Source of the DNA: Bacteroidaceae bacterium
GTDB lineage: Bacteria; Bacteroidota; Bacteroidia; Bacteroidales; Bacteroidaceae
Length of the DNA stretch: 35,901 nucleotides
NCBI GenBank assembly: GCA_017554605.1
Contig: JAFZIA010000008.1
Span: 1-35,901, forward strand
Direction of reading: 5' to 3'
The position numbers and the translations under genes were made by a program. A model generated the notes under the pieces. That model was given only the letters and a program-made list of their open reading frames with translations, was not told where the DNA came from and did no database searches. Positions 9,086 through 24,950 of this stretch are shown here, in pieces. The first letter of the stretch is position 1. Every line of letters starts with the position of its first letter.

Positions 9086-9159
9086 CGGTGCGTACGGGAC
9101 TCGAACCCGTGACCCCATGCGTGACAGGCATGTATTCTAACCAACTGAACTAACGCACC
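9086..9159 (-). tRNA. tRNA-Asp (GTC), copy 2 in transcription order
   Basis: The 74-nt minus-strand sequence folds as a cloverleaf. The acceptor stem is GGTGCGT/ACGCACC with discriminator G. The anticodon stem CATGC/GCATG encloses loop CTGTCAC, giving anticodon GTC for aspartate. The T-arm is ACGGG-TTCGAGT-CCCGT. The 3' CCA is not encoded. It is identical to the copy at 9206-9279, and the identity extends a few bases into both flanks. Confidence 0.96.
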
Positions 9160-9205: not shown

Positions 9206-9279
9206 CGGTGCGTACGGGACTCGAACCCGTGACCCCATGCGTGACAGGCATGTATTCTAACCAACTGAACTAACGCACC
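9206..9279 (-). tRNA. tRNA-Asp (GTC), copy 1 in transcription order
   Basis: Identical in sequence to the tRNA at 9086-9159 and separated from it by 46 bp. The anticodon is GTC, the discriminator base is G and CCA is not encoded. A canonical promoter lies about 45 nt upstream, so both tRNAs are probably made from one precursor ending at the terminator near 9047-9079. Confidence 0.96.
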
Positions 9280-16737: not shown

Positions 16738-18231
16738 TTATTTTGAAATAAAAATTTTCTTTTTTCCAATTATATAAACACCTTCAGGCAGTTTTTCTAA
16801 CGAAAATTCGGAGTTGATATTTGTACGAACAGCCGCCCCTTCCAAAGAATATACATTTTCGGTTTTTTCACTCCCGTGCATAATGTCGGTAATAGTTGTA
16901 TGAGAACCGTCGGAGTGGATTACACTTAGGCTTTTTGCCAATTGAACAGATGATGGCACAGTCAGATAAGATCTGAAAGGAAGAACCTTTGCATTGGCTC
17001 CAACAAGCACAAAATTACCATTGCTTGCATCAAAGACATAATATCGCAGCACAGCATCGCTGTTCAGTATTGCAGTGTTATAGCTTCCAGACATAGCAGC
17101 ATCACCACAATCTACAACAGGCGTTTGAAGAGTAGGCTCTACAGCATCTATTACTATATTTGTAAACGGAGCCATATCTTTGCTGCATTTGATTATATAA
17201 GGCGTATTTGCAAGCATCTCGTCAATTCTGGTAAAGAAAAGCGTTCCGTTGGTAGCATCAAAAGAGGATAAGCATTCAATCTCCACTCCCTGCTCCTTTA
17301 TCTGCTGCACCACCTCGGCAGAGAGCGCAAACGGCAAACAGACAGTAGACCAATACCCCGCTTTGAAAGTACGTTCAAACGAGGCCGAAGTACAGCTTAT
17401 ACCCTGCGGCACAAACAAAGAATACTCCCCATCGTGCAACGTAAGGTGTTTGCAAGTGTAGCCATCTTGGCTGCACTCAACGATATTCCCAGCCGGCATA
17501 TAGTCAAATTCGGCATTCTCCTTTACATAACACAAGGCATTTTTATTTGGCATAATAACAGGGGCACCAACATTATCTGCACCCGAGATATCAAGCCCTA
17601 CAAAATTCTCGTTACTCGAAATATCCTCGTTGACAGAAGTTATAACCCAAGAGGGGATATACCCTGTTAACGAGCTCAAATCGGGCAGGGCATCGGTTGT
17701 CAAAGGAGAATCACCAACGTAGCAATAAGAAGATGACGGGGCGAGCTTGATATCAGAATTACCGTTTATGGTAAGTATCGCATCGCGGATAAGGATTGGA
17801 TACAACCCCTCTTCCATAGTACCGTCGGCAAGATAATAGGCACGCAGAACCTCACCGCTACTTCCGTTTATGCGGTCGGCTTCTGTAGTAATGACAACAA
17901 CCCTCCACCAACCGTCTTCCTGCAATTTATAATTCACAATATGCTTAAAATTCTTCACACCTCCACGACCTATTGTATAGGGACAGCGGTCGCCCAATTC
18001 AAAAGGGTTAAGACCATCGGTGTTATCCAACGTCATACCTGCGGGCAGTAAAATATCGAACTGGAAAGCCCATACATCGGCAGTGGTGTTGTTCATCTCT
18101 ATGCTGAAAGAATAACCGTCAACAGTCGTTGCCCGAGGCTGTGCCTCGAAAGGCACAACCTGCAAAGCGTCCTCGGCACGCAATAAAGTAGCCGAGAAGA
18201 ATATCCAGAATAATAAAAAACACTTCTTCAT
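16738..18231 (-). CDS. Exported protein with cohesin-like domain and T9SS-like C-terminal tail
   Basis: The chosen start is the ATG at 18231 (MKKCFLLFWIFFSATLLRA), which gives a clean Sec signal peptide; an in-frame TTG lies three codons upstream. The product is 497 residues. The segment after the signal (about 25-165; SFSIEMNNTTADVWAFQFDILLPAGMTL is its core region) resembles cohesin-like beta-sandwich domains. The middle (about 285-440), with YWSTVCLPFALS, is a beta-rich type seen in Bacteroidetes surface proteins. The last ~38 residues (VYSLEGAAV, then LPEGVYIIGKKKIFISK) resemble a T9SS sorting tail. It starts 12 nt after the upstream dockerin-containing gene. Probably secreted to the surface; no enzymatic motif seen. 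Confidence 0.7.
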   Translation of the reverse strand: MKKCFLLFWIFFSATLLRAEDALQVVPFEAQPRATTVDGYSFSIEMNNTTADVWAFQFDILLPAGMTLDNTDGLNPFELGDRCPYTIGRGGVKNFKHIVNYKLQEDGWWRVVVITTEADRINGSSGEVLRAYYLADGTMEEGLYPILIRDAILTINGNSDIKLAPSSSYCYVGDSPLTTDALPDLSSLTGYIPSWVITSVNEDISSNENFVGLDISGADNVGAPVIMPNKNALCYVKENAEFDYMPAGNIVECSQDGYTCKHLTLHDGEYSLFVPQGISCTSASFERTFKAGYWSTVCLPFALSAEVVQQIKEQGVEIECLSSFDATNGTLFFTRIDEMLANTPYIIKCSKDMAPFTNIVIDAVEPTLQTPVVDCGDAAMSGSYNTAILNSDAVLRYYVFDASNGNFVLVGANAKVLPFRSYLTVPSSVQLAKSLSVIHSDGSHTTITDIMHGSEKTENVYSLEGAAVRTNINSEFSLEKLPEGVYIIGKKKIFISK

Positions 18232-18243
18232 AAAAAACAATTT

Positions 18244-19698
18244 TTACTCAAGGACGATTTCCACTACTCCCATTGCATCGGTTACATTGAAAGTATCATC
18301 GTCATTCATATCAGAAACCTCATTTATAAAAACCTCGGTCTTTTCCTTAAGTACAAAAGTAACAAGGTTCATAACATCGGTAACATTAACCACATTATCG
18401 CCATTCGTGTCGCCACGCTTATAAATGGCAATGCGTCCGTTACGGGTAGAAGCCGTTATATTTGCACCATCTTTCTCTATTACCGACACCTGATTTATTT
18501 TAGTACGCTCCGACATACCTGTCTTGTAATCGGCAGGAACAGGTATCTTGAAACGCATAAGCTCGGTGTTTCCTGCTTTTATTCTGCCCCCTATCAACGA
18601 AAAGATATAACAAGTGTCACCAACCTCGGTACACGAGACAGAGTAACCTTGTGCCGCTTCATTGAGGTACAATTCGTTCATTTCGGGGCGCAATCTCTCG
18701 GGGAATGTAATCTGAAAACTCATATCACATAATGTGTCGAGGCTTGTCAAATAAAGCGGAATATCGAGAGTGTCGCCAGGCTTACCTATTATTGTCATCA
18801 TATAAAAGGCATACTTGTTATTCTCGGGCATTTGCGGTTCGGAAGGATTAGCAGGGTCAAACTCGAACTTTGCCACAAAATGAATATCCTTTTTACCCAT
18901 TTTGTAGGAGAACTGTGATAACGACGTATAGAGAGTATCGCACACGAACCACCCCTTGAAGCGATAGCCGCTATTAGGGGTAGCCTGTATAGTACAACTC
19001 TCGCCTTCCAACAACCTTGATGCACCGGCTGTTACCGTTCCGCCATCGACTGTGCTCACCTTTACCCTATGTCTTAAAATGGGGTCAGAGGGTTCGGACG
19101 GCGCAGAGGGGTCGAATACAAAATGTGCTGTAAGCGTCTCATTTGCTGGGGTTGTCACGTATGTAAACGAACGGTTCAACGATACCGTATCACCTGCATT
19201 GTTTGTCCAGTTTACAAATACATAACCACTCTCGCACGAGGCACTAAGACTCACCCTTTGTCCTGCCTGATACTTTCCGCCGCCGCTCACGCTTCCTCCT
19301 TTTTCGGCAGCAAGTGTCAATCGGAAATATTGTATAAGCGACGGTTCTTGCGGTTCGGACGGTGCACCCGGGTTGAACCGGAAATGAGCCACAAGAACCT
19401 CGTCCTTATCGCCTTTCTTGAAGTTAAACGATGCAGCCGAAGATACAATCTCGCCTTTTTCGTCGGTCCATTTTTCAAACACATATCCCGTAGCAGCAGA
19501 AACCCGCAAGCCAACAGAAGTCTCGGGTACATAGCGTCCCGCACCATACACCGAACCTCCGTCTGCGGGGGAGGCTTTCAGCATCAGTTTACGTGGCGCA
19601 ACACCCGGCTCGGCAGGGTTCGTGGGGTTGAATTGTCCCAAGGCTGCAATGCTGCACAGCAGCATTGCAATCAGAGACAAATATCTTATTCTTCTCAT
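18244..19698 (-). CDS. Exported protein with InlB-like repeats, cohesin-like and dockerin-like domains
   Basis: This 484-residue protein starts with a Sec signal peptide (1-21, ending IAALGQ). Three InlB B-type beta repeats follow, near 37-108, 125-193 and 210-280, each with a GGSV/GGTV turn and a GYxFxxW core. A linker of the form FxPxxPxEP occurs four times, near 23-31, 108-116, 195-203 and 281-289. Residues about 295-425 resemble a cohesin-like domain (MTIIGKPGDTLDIPLYL). The end has two Ca-binding dockerin-type loops, GDTNGDNVVNVTDVMNLV and SDMNDDDTFNVTDAMGVV. There is no T9SS-like tail. Dockerins bind cohesins, so it could dock to a neighbour or another surface protein. It sits 16 nt after the LRR protein gene. 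Confidence 0.72.
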   Translation of the reverse strand: MRRIRYLSLIAMLLCSIAALGQFNPTNPAEPGVAPRKLMLKASPADGGSVYGAGRYVPETSVGLRVSAATGYVFEKWTDEKGEIVSSAASFNFKKGDKDEVLVAHFRFNPGAPSEPQEPSLIQYFRLTLAAEKGGSVSGGGKYQAGQRVSLSASCESGYVFVNWTNNAGDTVSLNRSFTYVTTPANETLTAHFVFDPSAPSEPSDPILRHRVKVSTVDGGTVTAGASRLLEGESCTIQATPNSGYRFKGWFVCDTLYTSLSQFSYKMGKKDIHFVAKFEFDPANPSEPQMPENNKYAFYMMTIIGKPGDTLDIPLYLTSLDTLCDMSFQITFPERLRPEMNELYLNEAAQGYSVSCTEVGDTCYIFSLIGGRIKAGNTELMRFKIPVPADYKTGMSERTKINQVSVIEKDGANITASTRNGRIAIYKRGDTNGDNVVNVTDVMNLVTFVLKEKTEVFINEVSDMNDDDTFNVTDAMGVVEIVLE

Positions 19699-19714: not shown

Positions 19715-22700
19715 TCATTTTACAACAACCTTAACAGCACCAGCATTTGTGCACACAATATATGTACCTGCAGAGACAAGAACTGTTCCGTCGCTCTCAA
19801 GCTCGGCTACCGTACGTCCGTCGATAGCTGTTACAGAGACAACACCCTCGGCACCGCTCACCTCAATGCAACCATTGCCTGCTTCCACCTTTATGCCAAG
19901 CTCGGCAAGATTTTCGATGCTTGTAGTTTCGGGAGATTTTGTTACTCCAAGCACAAAGCGGTCTGTGCATATTCCGGCCTCGGCTGTAAACGAGTATTCT
20001 CCATCGGCAAAATTGTGTGTGACTCCAGTTGCATTGTCAAAGAGAACAACCTCACGTGCATTGCAACGCGACAGAGAGAAGGTGTATGTTCCCTTTTGTG
20101 CTATTACAATGCCCAACTGAACATAGCCGCCATTGTAAGGACGCTCGTTTATAGCATACTCTGTACCTTCCTCGTCAATTGTATACAGTTGCGGTGCAAT
20201 ACCCTCGGTTGCAAAGAATTTGCTTGCATCGCACGCAGTCTCATACTCCATAGAAGCAGCATCGTTAAATACCACACGTGTACGGTCGTTAAGTTCTCCA
20301 CACGACAGTATAACATCGACCAACTGACGCGAATTTGCAGCGCTCGCAGCATTGAACAGTGGCGCACTCTGTTGACTCTCAATGACACTTGTCAACTGAC
20401 GACCAGTCTCGGGGAACGATATTGAATTTATATTCTCGGGGCACTGCACAAAGAAAGCCTCGTTGGGAGCTATTGCATAGTCGTCGTCAATTACCGAATA
20501 GGCATTATATTTTTTGTTATTGACATCGTACGTAGTGATGGGCGCAGTAAAGTTCAGCGCGTGAATATTGTACCAGCACTGCCACGGGTTACCCACAAGA
20601 TTCCAACCTCGGTTCGATGCTGTTGAACTTATATTCTCGTCGAGTGCTTTCACAAAAGCTTCGTTCGAAACAACATTTTGCTTGCTCTCGTTTTCAAGAG
20701 CTGTAAAATAGAGCCAGCAATTGGCACTTGTCTGCACAATGAATCCTGTGCCAGCCGCAATAACGGCGTCATCGGCATAATTTTTCCAGTTACCCGATGC
20801 CCCATTTGCAGCACGTGATGCGCCGTCGTAGTAGCGGAACACGAACTTTGTACCCTCTACGCTGGGTGTAACCTCGCTCACCTTGAAATCGAAAGGCAGC
20901 GACACAAAATACCAATATTTTCCGGTTGTATAGTATGCGTGCTTATACTGGCCAAGAATTTTTGTAGCATCGTTGTTCACAAGGATACGGGCATAGGCAT
21001 CATTCGATGTTCCACTATAATAATTATACGAATATGTCCTTATAGTATCGAACAACTGTTGCACATCGCCATTGAGTTTTATTGAACCAGCACTGTTTAT
21101 TGTAAGGTTAGGCTCACCATCGAAACGCTCGCGCACGTTCATTACAAGGTCGTTGTTAAGAGTCCAATTCTTTACATCGCCAGTATTGAAGCCCTCAATC
21201 TTGTAGTTGTACCAATACTCGTCCAGTTTATACGAATTAACAAGGAACGACGGAACTTTAATAACCACATCCTTGGGGCAACCATTAAGGAAGTCGTCTT
21301 TATCACTGCCACCAACCACTGTGGGAGACTTGAATACCAATGTCTTTAAGTTTTCACAAGAACTTATTGGTGATGAATTATTTGAATATGTTTCTTCATA
21401 ATATGATGTTGGAAATTCGGCATAGACAAGCTTATCACAATCGGAAAATATGCTATTAGAAAGACTGACACCCTCGGGAAGAATAAGAGAATCTATTGCT
21501 GTTTCATAAAAAGCCCAGGAACCTATAGATTTTAACGACTTAGGAAAACGGGGATTAAACTTTGTCGCGCGATAAAAAGCATATGAATTAATCACTGTTA
21601 GTCCCTCGGGTAATACAAAGGTCTGAAGATGGCTACAATTATAAAAACAATAACTTGGCACACTTTTTGCATACTTGGGATAATGCACTTTTGTTAAATG
21701 ATGGCAACTGCTAAAAGCATCATCATCTAATGTTGTACTGTCGGGCAAAATAGCCTCGGTTATCATTGCATCGTAAAAAGCATATCTGCCTATAGTTCTT
21801 AGCGTGCTTGGGAAATTCATCTTTTGTATATACGAACCATAGAAAGCGCTTTCTCCAATCTCCTCTAAGCTATCCGGTAAAATAACCTCGTGCAAGAAAG
21901 GCTCATTATAAAATTTATCCTTGGGAATTAATTTTACATCTGTTTCGCTAAGGTCTATAGAGTAGAGGCTTGTCATCATAGAAACCTTACTCCAATCGTC
22001 GTCGTTCATTCTACCCTTTATCTTTATGCGACGTACATCCTTTACGTGGTCTACATTGTAAAGCACCTCGGTACCAAGGCTTCCCGGCTCAACCAAATTA
22101 ACCTCGAAATAGGGAGTCTTTTCTATTCCAATTCCACGAATAGTACCGGTATAATAAGCATTATAAGAATCTTTACGTATATATCTCCATTCTATTTCGT
22201 GTGTTCCGGGAGATAGCTTCTCAAAATAACGAGAATAGTTATTACCTGGAGTTTCTTTTGTCATTGCAGCCTTTATTTCGCGCACAGTTACACCGTCTAT
22301 CAACACCTCGGCTGCCATTGCGCTATAGCCATAAAGGTAATAAGAGAGTGTAGCATCGGCATCGGTCTTTACCCTTGCTTTAAGGCTATATGTACCGGGA
22401 TTATATACACGTACTTCTAAACGTGCGTCATAATCATAACTGCTGGAGATGTAACTCCAATTCTTATCAGCATCATTTATAAAGAAGATAGGATAGTCGC
22501 TCCACTTACGAGCCTCTACTTTAGATGACAAAAGCAAGCCGCCCTCTATGTAATCGGCAGCCTCTTTCAACAGTTCGGTTGTGCTTGAAGGGTCGTTATA
22601 AACCTTTTCAAAATTATCCACTGCATAGAAATAGGTGTCTGTGGTTTGTAGTGCATCGTACAGACGTTTCTTGGCAATGTAATACTCGGCAGAATCTTTT

Positions 22701-23179
22701 TCTAAGAATTTCCAAACGATATTACCCTCGGTGAGGTTGGGGAGAATTTTTGTAGCATCTTCGGAGTAACCCACAAATTGTGTCTCGTTGTAATAGCTGC
22801 TGTTTTTGGGTGCACGTTGTATTGTGTAACCGTCGGCAGTGGCAGCTATTGTAAAGTAAGAAGTGTTATACAACGATGAATGGGTGCTTATCTCTGTAGA
22901 ATTAGCATAAATATAATATTTATCGCTGCTATACTGCAATGTGTAGCTGCTGTCTTCTCTTTGAATTACATCAACAGCAACGGCTTTTGCATATTCACCA
23001 ACCTTCAGTTGGGTTGTAAGGAACTTATCGCAGCCTACATTGTAAAGATAATAGGATTTTCCACTCTCGATGGTGGAATTATTGGGAAATACAGGCGCGG
23101 TGCGCTCTGCTGCACAAACCTGTGCAAACAAGAAAAGGCTTGCCACAAAAATGGCAAGATTACGTTTAATTGTGTCCAT
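19715..23179 (-). CDS. Large BspA-like leucine-rich-repeat surface protein with T9SS-like tail
   Basis: This 1154-residue protein has a Sec signal peptide (1-24). Residues about 30-170 form an N-terminal domain rich in Tyr, Ser and Thr. Residues about 225-350 look like a carbohydrate-binding-type beta-sandwich (YNPGTYSLKARVKTDADATL). Residues about 375-650 carry BspA-type LRR_5 repeats such as LEEIGESAFYGS and LKSIGSWAFYET. A further beta-rich region (about 690-1080) contains YWYFVSLPFDF and NLVGNPWQ. The last ~70 residues (VTAIDGRTVAELES, VSAGTYIVC, KVVVK) resemble a T9SS type A sorting domain. BspA proteins are associated with adhesion. It is the first gene of the operon, behind a long structured leader. 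Confidence 0.82.
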   Translation of the reverse strand: MDTIKRNLAIFVASLFLFAQVCAAERTAPVFPNNSTIESGKSYYLYNVGCDKFLTTQLKVGEYAKAVAVDVIQREDSSYTLQYSSDKYYIYANSTEISTHSSLYNTSYFTIAATADGYTIQRAPKNSSYYNETQFVGYSEDATKILPNLTEGNIVWKFLEKDSAEYYIAKKRLYDALQTTDTYFYAVDNFEKVYNDPSSTTELLKEAADYIEGGLLLSSKVEARKWSDYPIFFINDADKNWSYISSSYDYDARLEVRVYNPGTYSLKARVKTDADATLSYYLYGYSAMAAEVLIDGVTVREIKAAMTKETPGNNYSRYFEKLSPGTHEIEWRYIRKDSYNAYYTGTIRGIGIEKTPYFEVNLVEPGSLGTEVLYNVDHVKDVRRIKIKGRMNDDDWSKVSMMTSLYSIDLSETDVKLIPKDKFYNEPFLHEVILPDSLEEIGESAFYGSYIQKMNFPSTLRTIGRYAFYDAMITEAILPDSTTLDDDAFSSCHHLTKVHYPKYAKSVPSYCFYNCSHLQTFVLPEGLTVINSYAFYRATKFNPRFPKSLKSIGSWAFYETAIDSLILPEGVSLSNSIFSDCDKLVYAEFPTSYYEETYSNNSSPISSCENLKTLVFKSPTVVGGSDKDDFLNGCPKDVVIKVPSFLVNSYKLDEYWYNYKIEGFNTGDVKNWTLNNDLVMNVRERFDGEPNLTINSAGSIKLNGDVQQLFDTIRTYSYNYYSGTSNDAYARILVNNDATKILGQYKHAYYTTGKYWYFVSLPFDFKVSEVTPSVEGTKFVFRYYDGASRAANGASGNWKNYADDAVIAAGTGFIVQTSANCWLYFTALENESKQNVVSNEAFVKALDENISSTASNRGWNLVGNPWQCWYNIHALNFTAPITTYDVNNKKYNAYSVIDDDYAIAPNEAFFVQCPENINSISFPETGRQLTSVIESQQSAPLFNAASAANSRQLVDVILSCGELNDRTRVVFNDAASMEYETACDASKFFATEGIAPQLYTIDEEGTEYAINERPYNGGYVQLGIVIAQKGTYTFSLSRCNAREVVLFDNATGVTHNFADGEYSFTAEAGICTDRFVLGVTKSPETTSIENLAELGIKVEAGNGCIEVSGAEGVVSVTAIDGRTVAELESDGTVLVSAGTYIVCTNAGAVKVVVK

Positions 23180-23236: not shown

Positions 23237-23449
23237 TTAATAAAATTGGCGGTTTTGATTGGTAAAAACAAGAAGGACGTAAATTGCCCTTATTTGCTTA
23301 TTAACCAATCGGGTACCGCCAAGTAACCTTCCACCTAATAAGCAGAAGCAATCTACGCCCAACGTTGGACGCAGACTCTCATCGTGCTTATTCTCGGTGT
23401 GAAATTGGCGGTTTCGATTGATGAGAACAAGAAACAAAAGCCTCGACAT
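23237..23449 (-). CDS. Possible 70-residue leader ORF in the surface-operon leader
   Basis: An open frame of 70 codons spans the repeats in the leader. The two direct repeats are 159 nt apart, a multiple of three, so both are read in the same frame, as LVLINRNRQF and LLVFTNQNRQF. A Gly-rich CLLGGRLLGGTR lies between. It was not recognised, and no ribosome-binding site is obvious. It may be a translated leader peptide, or simply an open frame through a functional RNA, which I consider more likely. Confidence 0.22.
   Translation of the reverse strand: MSRLLFLVLINRNRQFHTENKHDESLRPTLGVDCFCLLGGRLLGGTRLVNKQIRAIYVLLVFTNQNRQFY
23246..23433 (-). promoter_or_regulatory. Structured leader with two mutually exclusive stems
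   Basis: On the minus-strand transcript an upstream arm (CAATCG...CCGCCAA, 23420-23405) and a downstream arm (CCAATC...CCGCCAA, 23262-23246) belong to two copies of a ~29-nt direct repeat (25 of 29 identical). Both are complementary to one central segment (TTGGCGG...CGATTGG, 23322-23305). The upstream pairing gives 13 bp with a small internal loop and encloses a nested 8-bp AATAAGCA/TGCTTATT stem (23392-23385, 23344-23337) plus a palindromic hairpin at 23354-23373. The downstream pairing gives about 13-14 bp. Only one can form at a time. This is attenuator- or riboswitch-like architecture, inferred from base pairing only. No known class was recognised. Confidence 0.5.
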
Positions 23450-23621: not shown

Positions 23622-23654
23622 CAAAGATATGTTTTTTTTTCGAAACTCAACAAA
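23622..23654 (-). promoter_or_regulatory. Canonical Bacteroidetes promoter of the surface-protein operon
   Basis: On the minus strand TTTG (23654-23651), a 21-nt spacer containing an A9 run, and TATCTTTG (23629-23622) match TTTG-N19-21-TAnnTTTG. Transcription would start near 23615, leaving a leader of about 435 nt before the LRR gene start at 23179. Confidence 0.7.
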
Positions 23655-23692: not shown

Positions 23693-24886
23693 TCAATACA
23701 GATGCGAGGGTATGCGCCTGTTATTCAAAAAATCGCTGCCCGAGGGCGCTTGGAAGGCTCTTAATCCAAACTCGGGGAGCACAGCAAACAGATACTCGAA
23801 CACCTCGGCTTGCAGATGCTCGTAGGGCACCCAGTTTATTCCGTCGTAGAAGAAATAGAGCTCAAGGGGCAGGCCCTGTGGCGTAGGTTGCAACTGACGC
23901 ACCAAAAGTGTCATTTTATTGTTTACCGACGGATGGTTGTGCAGCCACTCCTCGAGCCACTCGCGAAAGGCAGTGAGGTTGACGACCTTATCGCCCCTGT
24001 CGGCAGAGAGATAACCCTTCTCAATGAGTTCCTTGCGTTTCTCCTCGCTACAGAAAGCCACGCTGTTCATATCTATGAAAATCGAGCGTTTGATGCGTCT
24101 GCCACCGCTGTCCCACATTCCCCGCCAATTCTGGAACGAATCGCTCACAAGGGCATACGGGGGTATTGTGCTTATGGTATTGTCCCAGTTGCGCACCTTG
24201 ACGGTGGTGAGGGTTACGTCTACAACAAAGCCATCGGCATCGTATTTTGGCATTGTAATCCAGTCGCCGGGACGCAACATATCATTCGCCGACAACTGCA
24301 CACCTGCTACCAGTCCCATAATGCTGTCCTTGAACACCAGCATAAGCACAGCAGCCGAAGCACCGAGTCCGGCAAGCAGCTTCATAGGATTCTTGTCAAT
24401 CACAATGCTTGCGACAATTATTGCGCCTATGCAGATAGCTATTATCTTGAGCATCTGGAACACACCCTGCAATGTATGGTTCTTTGTCCTCTCGGCCTCG
24501 GTGGATATAAGATTGAGCGCTGCAAACAGGCTGCACGCCAACTGCACCGATACGACGGTGAGATAAACCCAGCAGAGCCTTGCTGCAAAAGTGTATATAA
24601 CGCTCTCCTTGCTGAGCACAAAAGGGAGCAGTGCTATGATTATCACTGCCACTATCATATTGCACATAATCCTGAGGGTAGCCTCGTTGAGCAGGATTTC
24701 GTCCCATTTGGTTTCTGTTTTTCGGGTGAGCATCTTCACAAACGGAATGAGCGCCCTGCTGCAGAGAATCCTGCTGCAATATATGAGCAGGACTATTCCC
24801 GTGAGCACTATAACCCAATAGAGAATGGCCACGGTACCACTCTCAATGCCCAAGCTGCGCAATAACGAGGTCAGATAATTTTCCAT
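23693..24886 (-). CDS. MscS-family mechanosensitive ion channel (YbdG-like)
   Basis: The start chosen is the ATG at 24886 (MENYLTSLL); an in-frame ATG further upstream overlaps the terminator of the preceding gene. The 397-residue protein has about five transmembrane helices (near 18-37, 75-92, 100-120, 146-165 and 171-195). The pore-lining MscS helix reads LLAGLGASAAVLMLVFKD, then SIMGLVAGVQL. The cytoplasmic beta domain follows: GDWITM, VTLTTVKVRNWDNT and SFQNWRGM, the last two typical of YbdG-like members. Such channels open on membrane tension and relieve osmotic downshock. No promoter of its own is evident, so read-through from the porin-like gene upstream is possible. Confidence 0.88.
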   Translation of the reverse strand: MENYLTSLLRSLGIESGTVAILYWVIVLTGIVLLIYCSRILCSRALIPFVKMLTRKTETKWDEILLNEATLRIMCNMIVAVIIIALLPFVLSKESVIYTFAARLCWVYLTVVSVQLACSLFAALNLISTEAERTKNHTLQGVFQMLKIIAICIGAIIVASIVIDKNPMKLLAGLGASAAVLMLVFKDSIMGLVAGVQLSANDMLRPGDWITMPKYDADGFVVDVTLTTVKVRNWDNTISTIPPYALVSDSFQNWRGMWDSGGRRIKRSIFIDMNSVAFCSEEKRKELIEKGYLSADRGDKVVNLTAFREWLEEWLHNHPSVNNKMTLLVRQLQPTPQGLPLELYFFYDGINWVPYEHLQAEVFEYLFAVLPEFGLRAFQAPSGSDFLNNRRIPSHLY

Positions 24887-24912
24887 ATAATCGTTTGGTT
24901 TATCAGGAAACT

Positions 24913-24950
24913 TAAAACCGATAGGCGACACAAGCCTCCTATCGGTTTTA
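24913..24950 (-). terminator. Hairpin terminator after the beta-barrel gene
   Basis: A perfect 13-bp inverted repeat (24913-24925 and 24938-24950), with U-rich bases in the 3' arm on the minus strand, begins 27 nt past the beta-barrel gene. The T-tract after the stem is short, so termination may be partial, and the channel gene begins only 27 nt further on. Confidence 0.7.

Follow-up and report, generated by a model that had tools for sequence, protein, structure and literature searches.

A candidate bistable transcription attenuator ahead of a surface-protein operon in a Bacteroidaceae bacterium, and its apparently undescribed relatives in Bacteroidota

The window analysed here is a stretch of 35,901 nucleotides of a Bacteroidaceae bacterium (GCA_017554605.1, contig JAFZIA010000008.1, positions 1 to 35,901). 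On its minus strand, between an MscS-like gene and three closely spaced genes, lies a switch leader of about 200 nt (approximately 23444-23241) ahead of a surface-protein operon (Table 1). A sequence-only reading of the same DNA had placed a canonical promoter upstream of the leader, and a promoter-like TTG-N18-TATCTTTG is indeed present there, a form that we take to be the Bacteroidota promoter consensus. In an excerpt of PMC9723704, TAnnTTTG is given as the promoter form for a flavobacterium. Predicted folding of 23440-23180 (261 nt) gives -85.8 kcal/mol, whereas dinucleotide shuffles give -51.2 +- 4.6 kcal/mol (z = -7.5), none of the 200 being equally stable. Elsewhere in the window, two tandem tRNA matches of equal score occur at 9086-9159 and 9206-9279, also on the minus strand.

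Table 1. Genes, promoter-like sequence and leader strands in the window.
Feature	Position	Strand	Pairing or description	Basis or remark
MscS-like gene	23693-24931	minus	adjoins the leader on its 5' side
Promoter-like TTG-N18-TATCTTTG	23622..23650	minus	about 180-190 nt 5' of the switch	from sequence
5' arm GAGGCUUUUGUUU	23432..23444	minus	counterpart of the family's GAGCUUUU-GCUC element; predicted as a local hairpin in fold 1 and pairing towards S1/B1 in fold 2	predicted folds only
S1' (CUUGUUCUC)	23423..23431	minus	partner of S1 in fold 2
A1	23400..23422	minus	upstream arm of the sequence-only reading; 5' strands of P1 and P2	P1 covariation; P2 varies between lineages
P3 5' strand (ACACC)	23396..23400	minus	first base is the last base of A1
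S1 (GAGAAUAAG)	23387..23395	minus	with S2' (fold 1) or S1' (fold 2)
B1	23365..23377	minus	5' strand of the central hairpin, fold 1	covariation
B1'	23346..23360	minus	with B1 (fold 1) or B2 (fold 2, predicted terminator)
S2' (UGCUUAUU)	23337..23344	minus	with S1 (fold 1) or S2 (fold 2)
A1'	23304..23324	minus	central segment of the sequence-only reading; with A1 (fold 1); alternatively, core as a small local hairpin within the terminator (fold 2), or pairing with A2
S2 (AAUAAGC)	23296..23302	minus	with S2' (fold 2)	fold 2 covariation
B2	23275..23291	minus	15-bp partner of B1', 3' side of the terminator stem
U-rich tract UUCUUGUUUUU	23264..23274	minus	after the terminator stem	interrupted in the window
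A2	23241..23263	minus	downstream arm of the sequence-only reading; third partner of A1'
Gene 1	19715..23179	minus	1154-aa BspA-type LRR protein, signal-peptide-like start	start judged by eye
Gene 2	18244..19698	minus	InlB-B-like repeats	dockerin I match slightly under the Pfam cut-off
Gene 3	16738..18240	minus		without Pfam match

The leader can be read as the succession S1'-A1-S1-B1 / B1'-S2'-A1'-S2-B2-U-tract, from which two folds may be drawn. Fold 1 is one long hairpin with arms 23422-23400 and 23324-23304. The central segment had been proposed to pair with either an upstream or a downstream arm, and 23324-23304 is predicted to pair equally well with 23422-23400 and with 23263-23241 (-22.4 kcal/mol each); the nested stem and the palindromic hairpin described inside the upstream pairing are both present as well. 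Moreover, the two arms, taken for direct-repeat copies separated by four transitions, belong to a repeat of 32 nt (23243-23274 and 23402-23433) with 88% identity, in which all four differences are transitions. That reading had missed the partner of B1' at 23291-23275 and the U-rich tract at 23274-23264, which belong to fold 2. The latter consists of a 5' hairpin and of a 3' hairpin (23360-23346 with 23291-23275, 15 bp) that has S2'-S2 inside and is followed by the tract. Since the strands of S1'-S1, S2'-S2 and B1'-B2 are needed by fold 1 too, the two folds are mutually exclusive.

Relatives of the leader were found well beyond the window. The genome from which the window comes carries a second copy, located before a small helix-turn-helix (HTH) gene, and of 44 genomes of the genus, 11 matched in a DNA search. 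At E <= 0.001, a covariance model built from 14 sequences found the element in 152 of the 301 genomes sampled from the family, representing 20 of 30 genera, and in 67 of the 247 sampled from the order, representing 53 of 174 genera, own genome counted in both, tallies that are unaffected by the scoring of the opposite strand of the near-palindromic core, because of which the copy numbers from this model are too high. A second model, of 99 sequences, matched 28 of the 44 genus genomes at E <= 1e-8 and 16 of 296 genomes across the phylum at E <= 1e-6, its specificity being judged from the 280 of 296 genomes without a match and from 11 loci inspected of the 21 matches besides the own genome. In addition, a pattern scan of named genomes returned at least 117 stretches; among the 80 titles listed, most are Prevotella, Prevotellaceae or Bacteroidaceae, together with Paraprevotella clara, Leyella stercorea, Xylanibacter, Palleniella, Alistipes, an Ignavibacteria bin, and two records of one bin named Bacillota. 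Two copies of equal score in opposite orientation on one contig (G042:C59, 1620-1744 and 264399-264523) are possibly a repeat. Furthermore, some Prevotella-like loci (L094, L159, L161) seem to have a further 5' domain upstream of the core, with a possible helix, in an alignment that is weak, and a two-codon open reading frame AUG-NNN-UAR after GCCN; GCCNATG occurs in 42 of the 126 loci with enough upstream sequence and is absent from 84, and 32 of the 42 reach a stop after 0-1 further codon.

The core matches no Rfam 15 family, T-box, ribosomal leaders, Bacteroidales-1 and Flavo-1 included, at the gathering score in the window or in 43 further loci (12, 20 and 11), and the weak hits under the threshold were judged to be due to chance. 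The 224 motifs of a 2017 survey are reportedly largely in Rfam. DUF805 RNA (RF03081) does occur near the element in two loci: directly behind the switch in L199 (2390-2458, minus strand), where the gene that follows has a signal-peptide-like start, and approximately 1 kb from it in L077 (7671-7738, minus strand).

Pairing in the two folds was compared in an alignment (A3) of 60 sequences, hand-picked from the 116 remaining after a similarity filter of 135 loci; a model-aligned alignment (A5) served solely for building R2. In fold 1, the helices P2, P4 and B1-B1' are paired in 98.4% of cells, with two-sided changes at 10 pairs (37 cells), and their covariation score of 0.209 exceeds both that of shuffled alignments (0.170 +- 0.004), a control that leaves the relatedness among sequences in place, and the maximum obtained by sliding the strands (0.080). 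For further pair types in P4 and the B hairpin, the count is unremarkable, 52 of 500 shuffles reaching it. Within this fold, B1-B1' is 99.6% paired and has two-sided changes at six of nine pairs, and P3 binds its own partner at -5.3 kcal/mol compared with -1.7 kcal/mol for swapped partners (123 loci). P2 is invariant throughout the 60 sequences; in distant loci it changes as a whole helix with compensation on both strands (UCGCCAA/UUGGCGA, CGACCAA/UUGGUCG and CUGGUA/UACCAG). In L267 and L270, the two P2 strands are exchanged, with GUUUGGCG on the 5' side, while the remaining element is unchanged. P1, an 8-bp helix, was counted solely where the spacing is fixed, in 85 of 135 loci (80 distinct sequences); it is paired in 594 of 640 cells (92.8%), against a mean of 52.2% with swapped partners (500 swaps, maximum 57.5%), and all four Watson-Crick pairs occur at seven of its eight positions.

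Two-sided changes are commoner in the helices of fold 2 than in those of fold 1. S1'-S1, S2'-S2 and B1'-B2 are 95.7% paired, with 13 pairs and 97 cells changed on both sides, and score 0.386, above shuffled alignments in which relatedness is likewise retained (0.282 +- 0.008) and above the slid maximum of 0.161; sliding by -3 gives an equal 13 two-sided pairs, but only 32 cells instead of 97. S1'-S1 is 98% paired with two-sided changes at four of nine pairs, and B1' binds its own B2 better than swapped ones by a mean of 2.4 kcal/mol (108 loci), with about one third of the swapped partners binding equally well. In three loci (L041, L050, L141), S2' is CUUUUC and matches S2 (GAAAAG or GAAAGG), while S1 stays AGAACA, which makes full pairing with S2' impossible. 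A T-run follows the fold 2 hairpin in 188 of 196 loci, a recognisable one being absent from the other eight, and the hairpin of the 3' half ends at the T-run in 185 of these 188. This 3' half is more stable than its shuffles (-33.3 versus -20.2 kcal/mol, 94 loci), as is the local hairpin of the A1' core (-4.77 versus -2.70 kcal/mol, 196 loci). A kissing-loop arrangement, in which a local hairpin of A1 would face that of A1', was rejected, A1 being no more stable than its shuffles (-0.54 versus -0.43 kcal/mol).

The 3' hairpin of fold 2 with its U-tract looks like an intrinsic terminator, which would stop transcription in the cell. A hairpin and U-tract before the gene, and an exclusive antiterminator that uses the 5' strand of the terminator, both conserved, are features of an attenuator that the family shows, and from these sequence comparisons the leader is quite probably a cis-acting, bistable transcription attenuator. 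The sequence-only reading had described a switch-like leader of no recognised class, which agrees with the result of the Rfam search and with the covariation of two exclusive folds; compensatory changes, whose absence from the stems would have spoken against that description, occur in both folds. Two points of that reading need correction: the competitor seen across the family is the intrinsic terminator, and the downstream repeat is a local third arm.

Which molecule is selected could be judged from mismatched pairs. In S1'-S1, B1-B1', P4, S2'-S2 and B1'-B2 of the 60 sequences, G-U pairs number 319 and A-C pairs 14, strands shared by two helices being entered in both; this large excess of G-U indicates that the selected molecule is the RNA strand transcribed toward the gene. 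It also bears on the possibility that the family is a palindromic mobile DNA element (REP-, MITE- or attC-like) that by chance lies upstream of genes. In its favour, the family is multi-copy and near-palindromic, as the scoring of the reverse strand indicates, and stands before accessory-looking genes. P1, unlike the five other helices counted, is also what a DNA-level process would give: its seven positions hold 521 Watson-Crick, nine G-U and eight A-C pairs, and P1 alone shows no strand preference. Its 5' strands are all different among the copies of one genome (eight of eight) and of another (seven of seven). However, the ratio in the five other helices, the covariation of fold 2, part of which falls outside the palindrome, the narrow distance to the ATG and the T-run on one side all argue against a mobile element. 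The exact pattern was unmatched in viral contigs, one query found no similar phage record, and two queries of plasmid records returned none and one similar record, respectively. The mobile-element origin is, on this evidence, highly improbable, and the concern raised earlier that the leader might be a remnant of one meets indirect evidence to the contrary. Comparison across the family shows selection for both folds, a T-run after the fold 2 hairpin, and selection on the RNA strand.

The genes behind the element are mostly those of exported proteins. The ATG follows the GGCGG core at a median distance of 59 nt (130 loci), and 107 loci have a distinct downstream open reading frame (11 of 118 pattern matches have none). 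By a home-made hydrophobicity rule, the same for targets and controls, a signal-peptide-like start is found in 79 of 97 non-HTH targets compared with 144 of 413 other open reading frames of the same contigs (odds ratio 8.2, p 4e-17). Small HTH genes form the next group, with 10 of the 107 downstream frames. As judged by eye, genes behind copies outside the Bacteroidaceae resemble subunits of type I and III restriction-modification systems, methyltransferases, an acyltransferase and HTH proteins, and in L220, L221, L171 and L174 the element precedes genes resembling restriction-modification methylases or subunits. Pfam searches of 110 N-termini (chosen from 122) gave 42 families, of which LRR_5 is the commonest, with 14. 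This lack of an obvious common pathway weighs against a classical metabolite riboswitch, in which the conserved internal-loop bases of fold 1 would form the predicted ligand pocket. The conserved bases around P2 (GAAU / AACC and AUAUUC / AGGUCAC) and the multiple copies per genome fit a riboswitch, but much of the 3' conservation can be put down to the A1' hairpin that forms locally in fold 2, and we consider this explanation rather unlikely.

The leader could instead be a protein-binding one, under the control of the small IHIG-type HTH protein often encoded behind one copy, which would bind it. In three multi-copy genomes, one or two HTH copies do stand beside copies before other, mostly exported proteins. 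However, among the 44 genus genomes, RNA and HTH gene occur together in 19, the RNA only in nine, the HTH gene only in 10 and neither in six, which gives no association; the tally includes many incomplete genomes, and a single HTH query at E <= 1e-6 could overlook divergent members. The HTH protein was rejected as a trans factor since its presence does not track that of the RNA, and control of this kind seems improbable.

In the attenuator that we favour, the pairings A1-A1', S1-S2' and B1-B1' would form the long hairpin of fold 1, hiding B1' and S2', so that the polymerase would continue into the gene. In fold 2, S1'-S1 would close the 5' hairpin and B1'-B2 with S2'-S2 would form the hairpin immediately before the U-tract, causing an early stop. 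Fold 2 would thus terminate transcription in the cell, and a signal would tip the balance. Mean predicted energies are -64.7 kcal/mol for fold 1 and -57.2 kcal/mol for fold 2 (188 loci), with fold 1 favoured by a median of 7 kcal/mol. In minimum-energy folds of growing window transcripts, S1'-S1 appears first and fold 1 after A1' emerges. Fold 1, whose predicted energy is lower in 174 of 188 loci, may be the default state. The same preference would suit a long hairpin that merely protects the mRNA or holds back ribosomes, with no switching; this, however, leaves unexplained the covariation of S1'-S1, S2'-S2 and B1'-B2 and the T-run, and the ATG stands about 60 nt beyond the core, so we regard a non-switching hairpin as very improbable. 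For the attenuator, the energies favouring fold 1 suggest that termination may need help, from a signal or from fast transcription. As no pathway obviously links the downstream genes, our preferred guess for the input is a general cell-state signal or factor, which could act on the A1' hairpin or on the A1 strand exposed in the 5' hairpin. More speculatively, and with clearly less than even confidence, the family could be a phylum-wide class of switch RNA without a separate aptamer, built from mirror-image arms with two folds of similar energy, in which P1, rewritten almost only by Watson-Crick changes, would be a per-copy key against cross-pairing, and accessory exported, regulatory and restriction genes would be under shared kinetic or trans-acting control.

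The third arm, A2, has a narrower distribution. A complete A2 that matches A1' is present in seven of 66 distinct elements, all seven in the genus of the window. In all of them, A2-A1' is within 1 kcal/mol of A1-A1' (e.g., -22.4/-22.4 and -24.2/-24.1), and the P1 part of A2 tracks A1' between species. The word ACCGCCA occurs downstream in three further elements, two of them inside an HTH coding sequence and one of unclear status. Six of the seven leaders with A2 precede a protein that is 56-100% identical to the window LRR protein (matched part of the first 300 residues), and the protein behind the seventh (L007) has no match to it. The leaders of three remoter homologues, 36-41% identical (L046, L246, and L113/L239 counted as one), lack the CCGCC part of A2; behind the U-tract of L239 there is a stretch that resembles the P1 part of the arm alone. 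A2 was, therefore, rejected as a mark of the leaders of all LRR orthologues, and seems proper to close relatives of the window leader. In the window, A2, matched in strength, would add competition for A1'.

Terminator/antiterminator attenuators and transcriptional riboswitches likewise have two exclusive stems, one of them an intrinsic terminator before a coding gene; the family described here differs in being mirror-built, with one partner per fold for most segments, covariation in both folds and no evident separate aptamer. T-box leaders share with it a long leader, a terminator/antiterminator choice and a G-rich conserved strand, whereas the core of this family had no Rfam match in the searches run. 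In hok-type metastable mRNA leaders, early hairpins refold into a long-range pairing; the present family, by contrast, has no toxin gene as a common target and has a terminator-like end. DUF805 RNA is also a cis-regulatory RNA, but it differs in sequence and position, and the window core does not match it. Fremin and Bhatt (2021; PMC8040213) described palindromic Bacteroidetes candidates of 80-132 bp, several of them predicted terminators. These might include parts of this family; they differ in their named neighbours, which are phage domains, TPR, RuvA and TonB genes. For one flavobacterium, PMC9723704 describes 64 structured 5' regions, part of them conserved and without Rfam hits. In the available portions of the literature searched (including PMC2864571, PMC7366714, PMC8040213, PMC9723704 and PMC2965389), no description of this leader family was found. 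The family is real, widespread in Bacteroidota and apparently undescribed.

If this interpretation is right, many Bacteroidales (half of the sampled genomes of the family and about one quarter of those of the order), including gut and rumen bacteria, would use an unrecorded RNA switch that gates surface and secreted proteins, small regulators and some restriction genes. With sequence support for both states and many natural variants to draw on, how co-transcriptional folding is coupled to termination could be tested directly, and a shared input for a regulon of exported proteins could be looked for.
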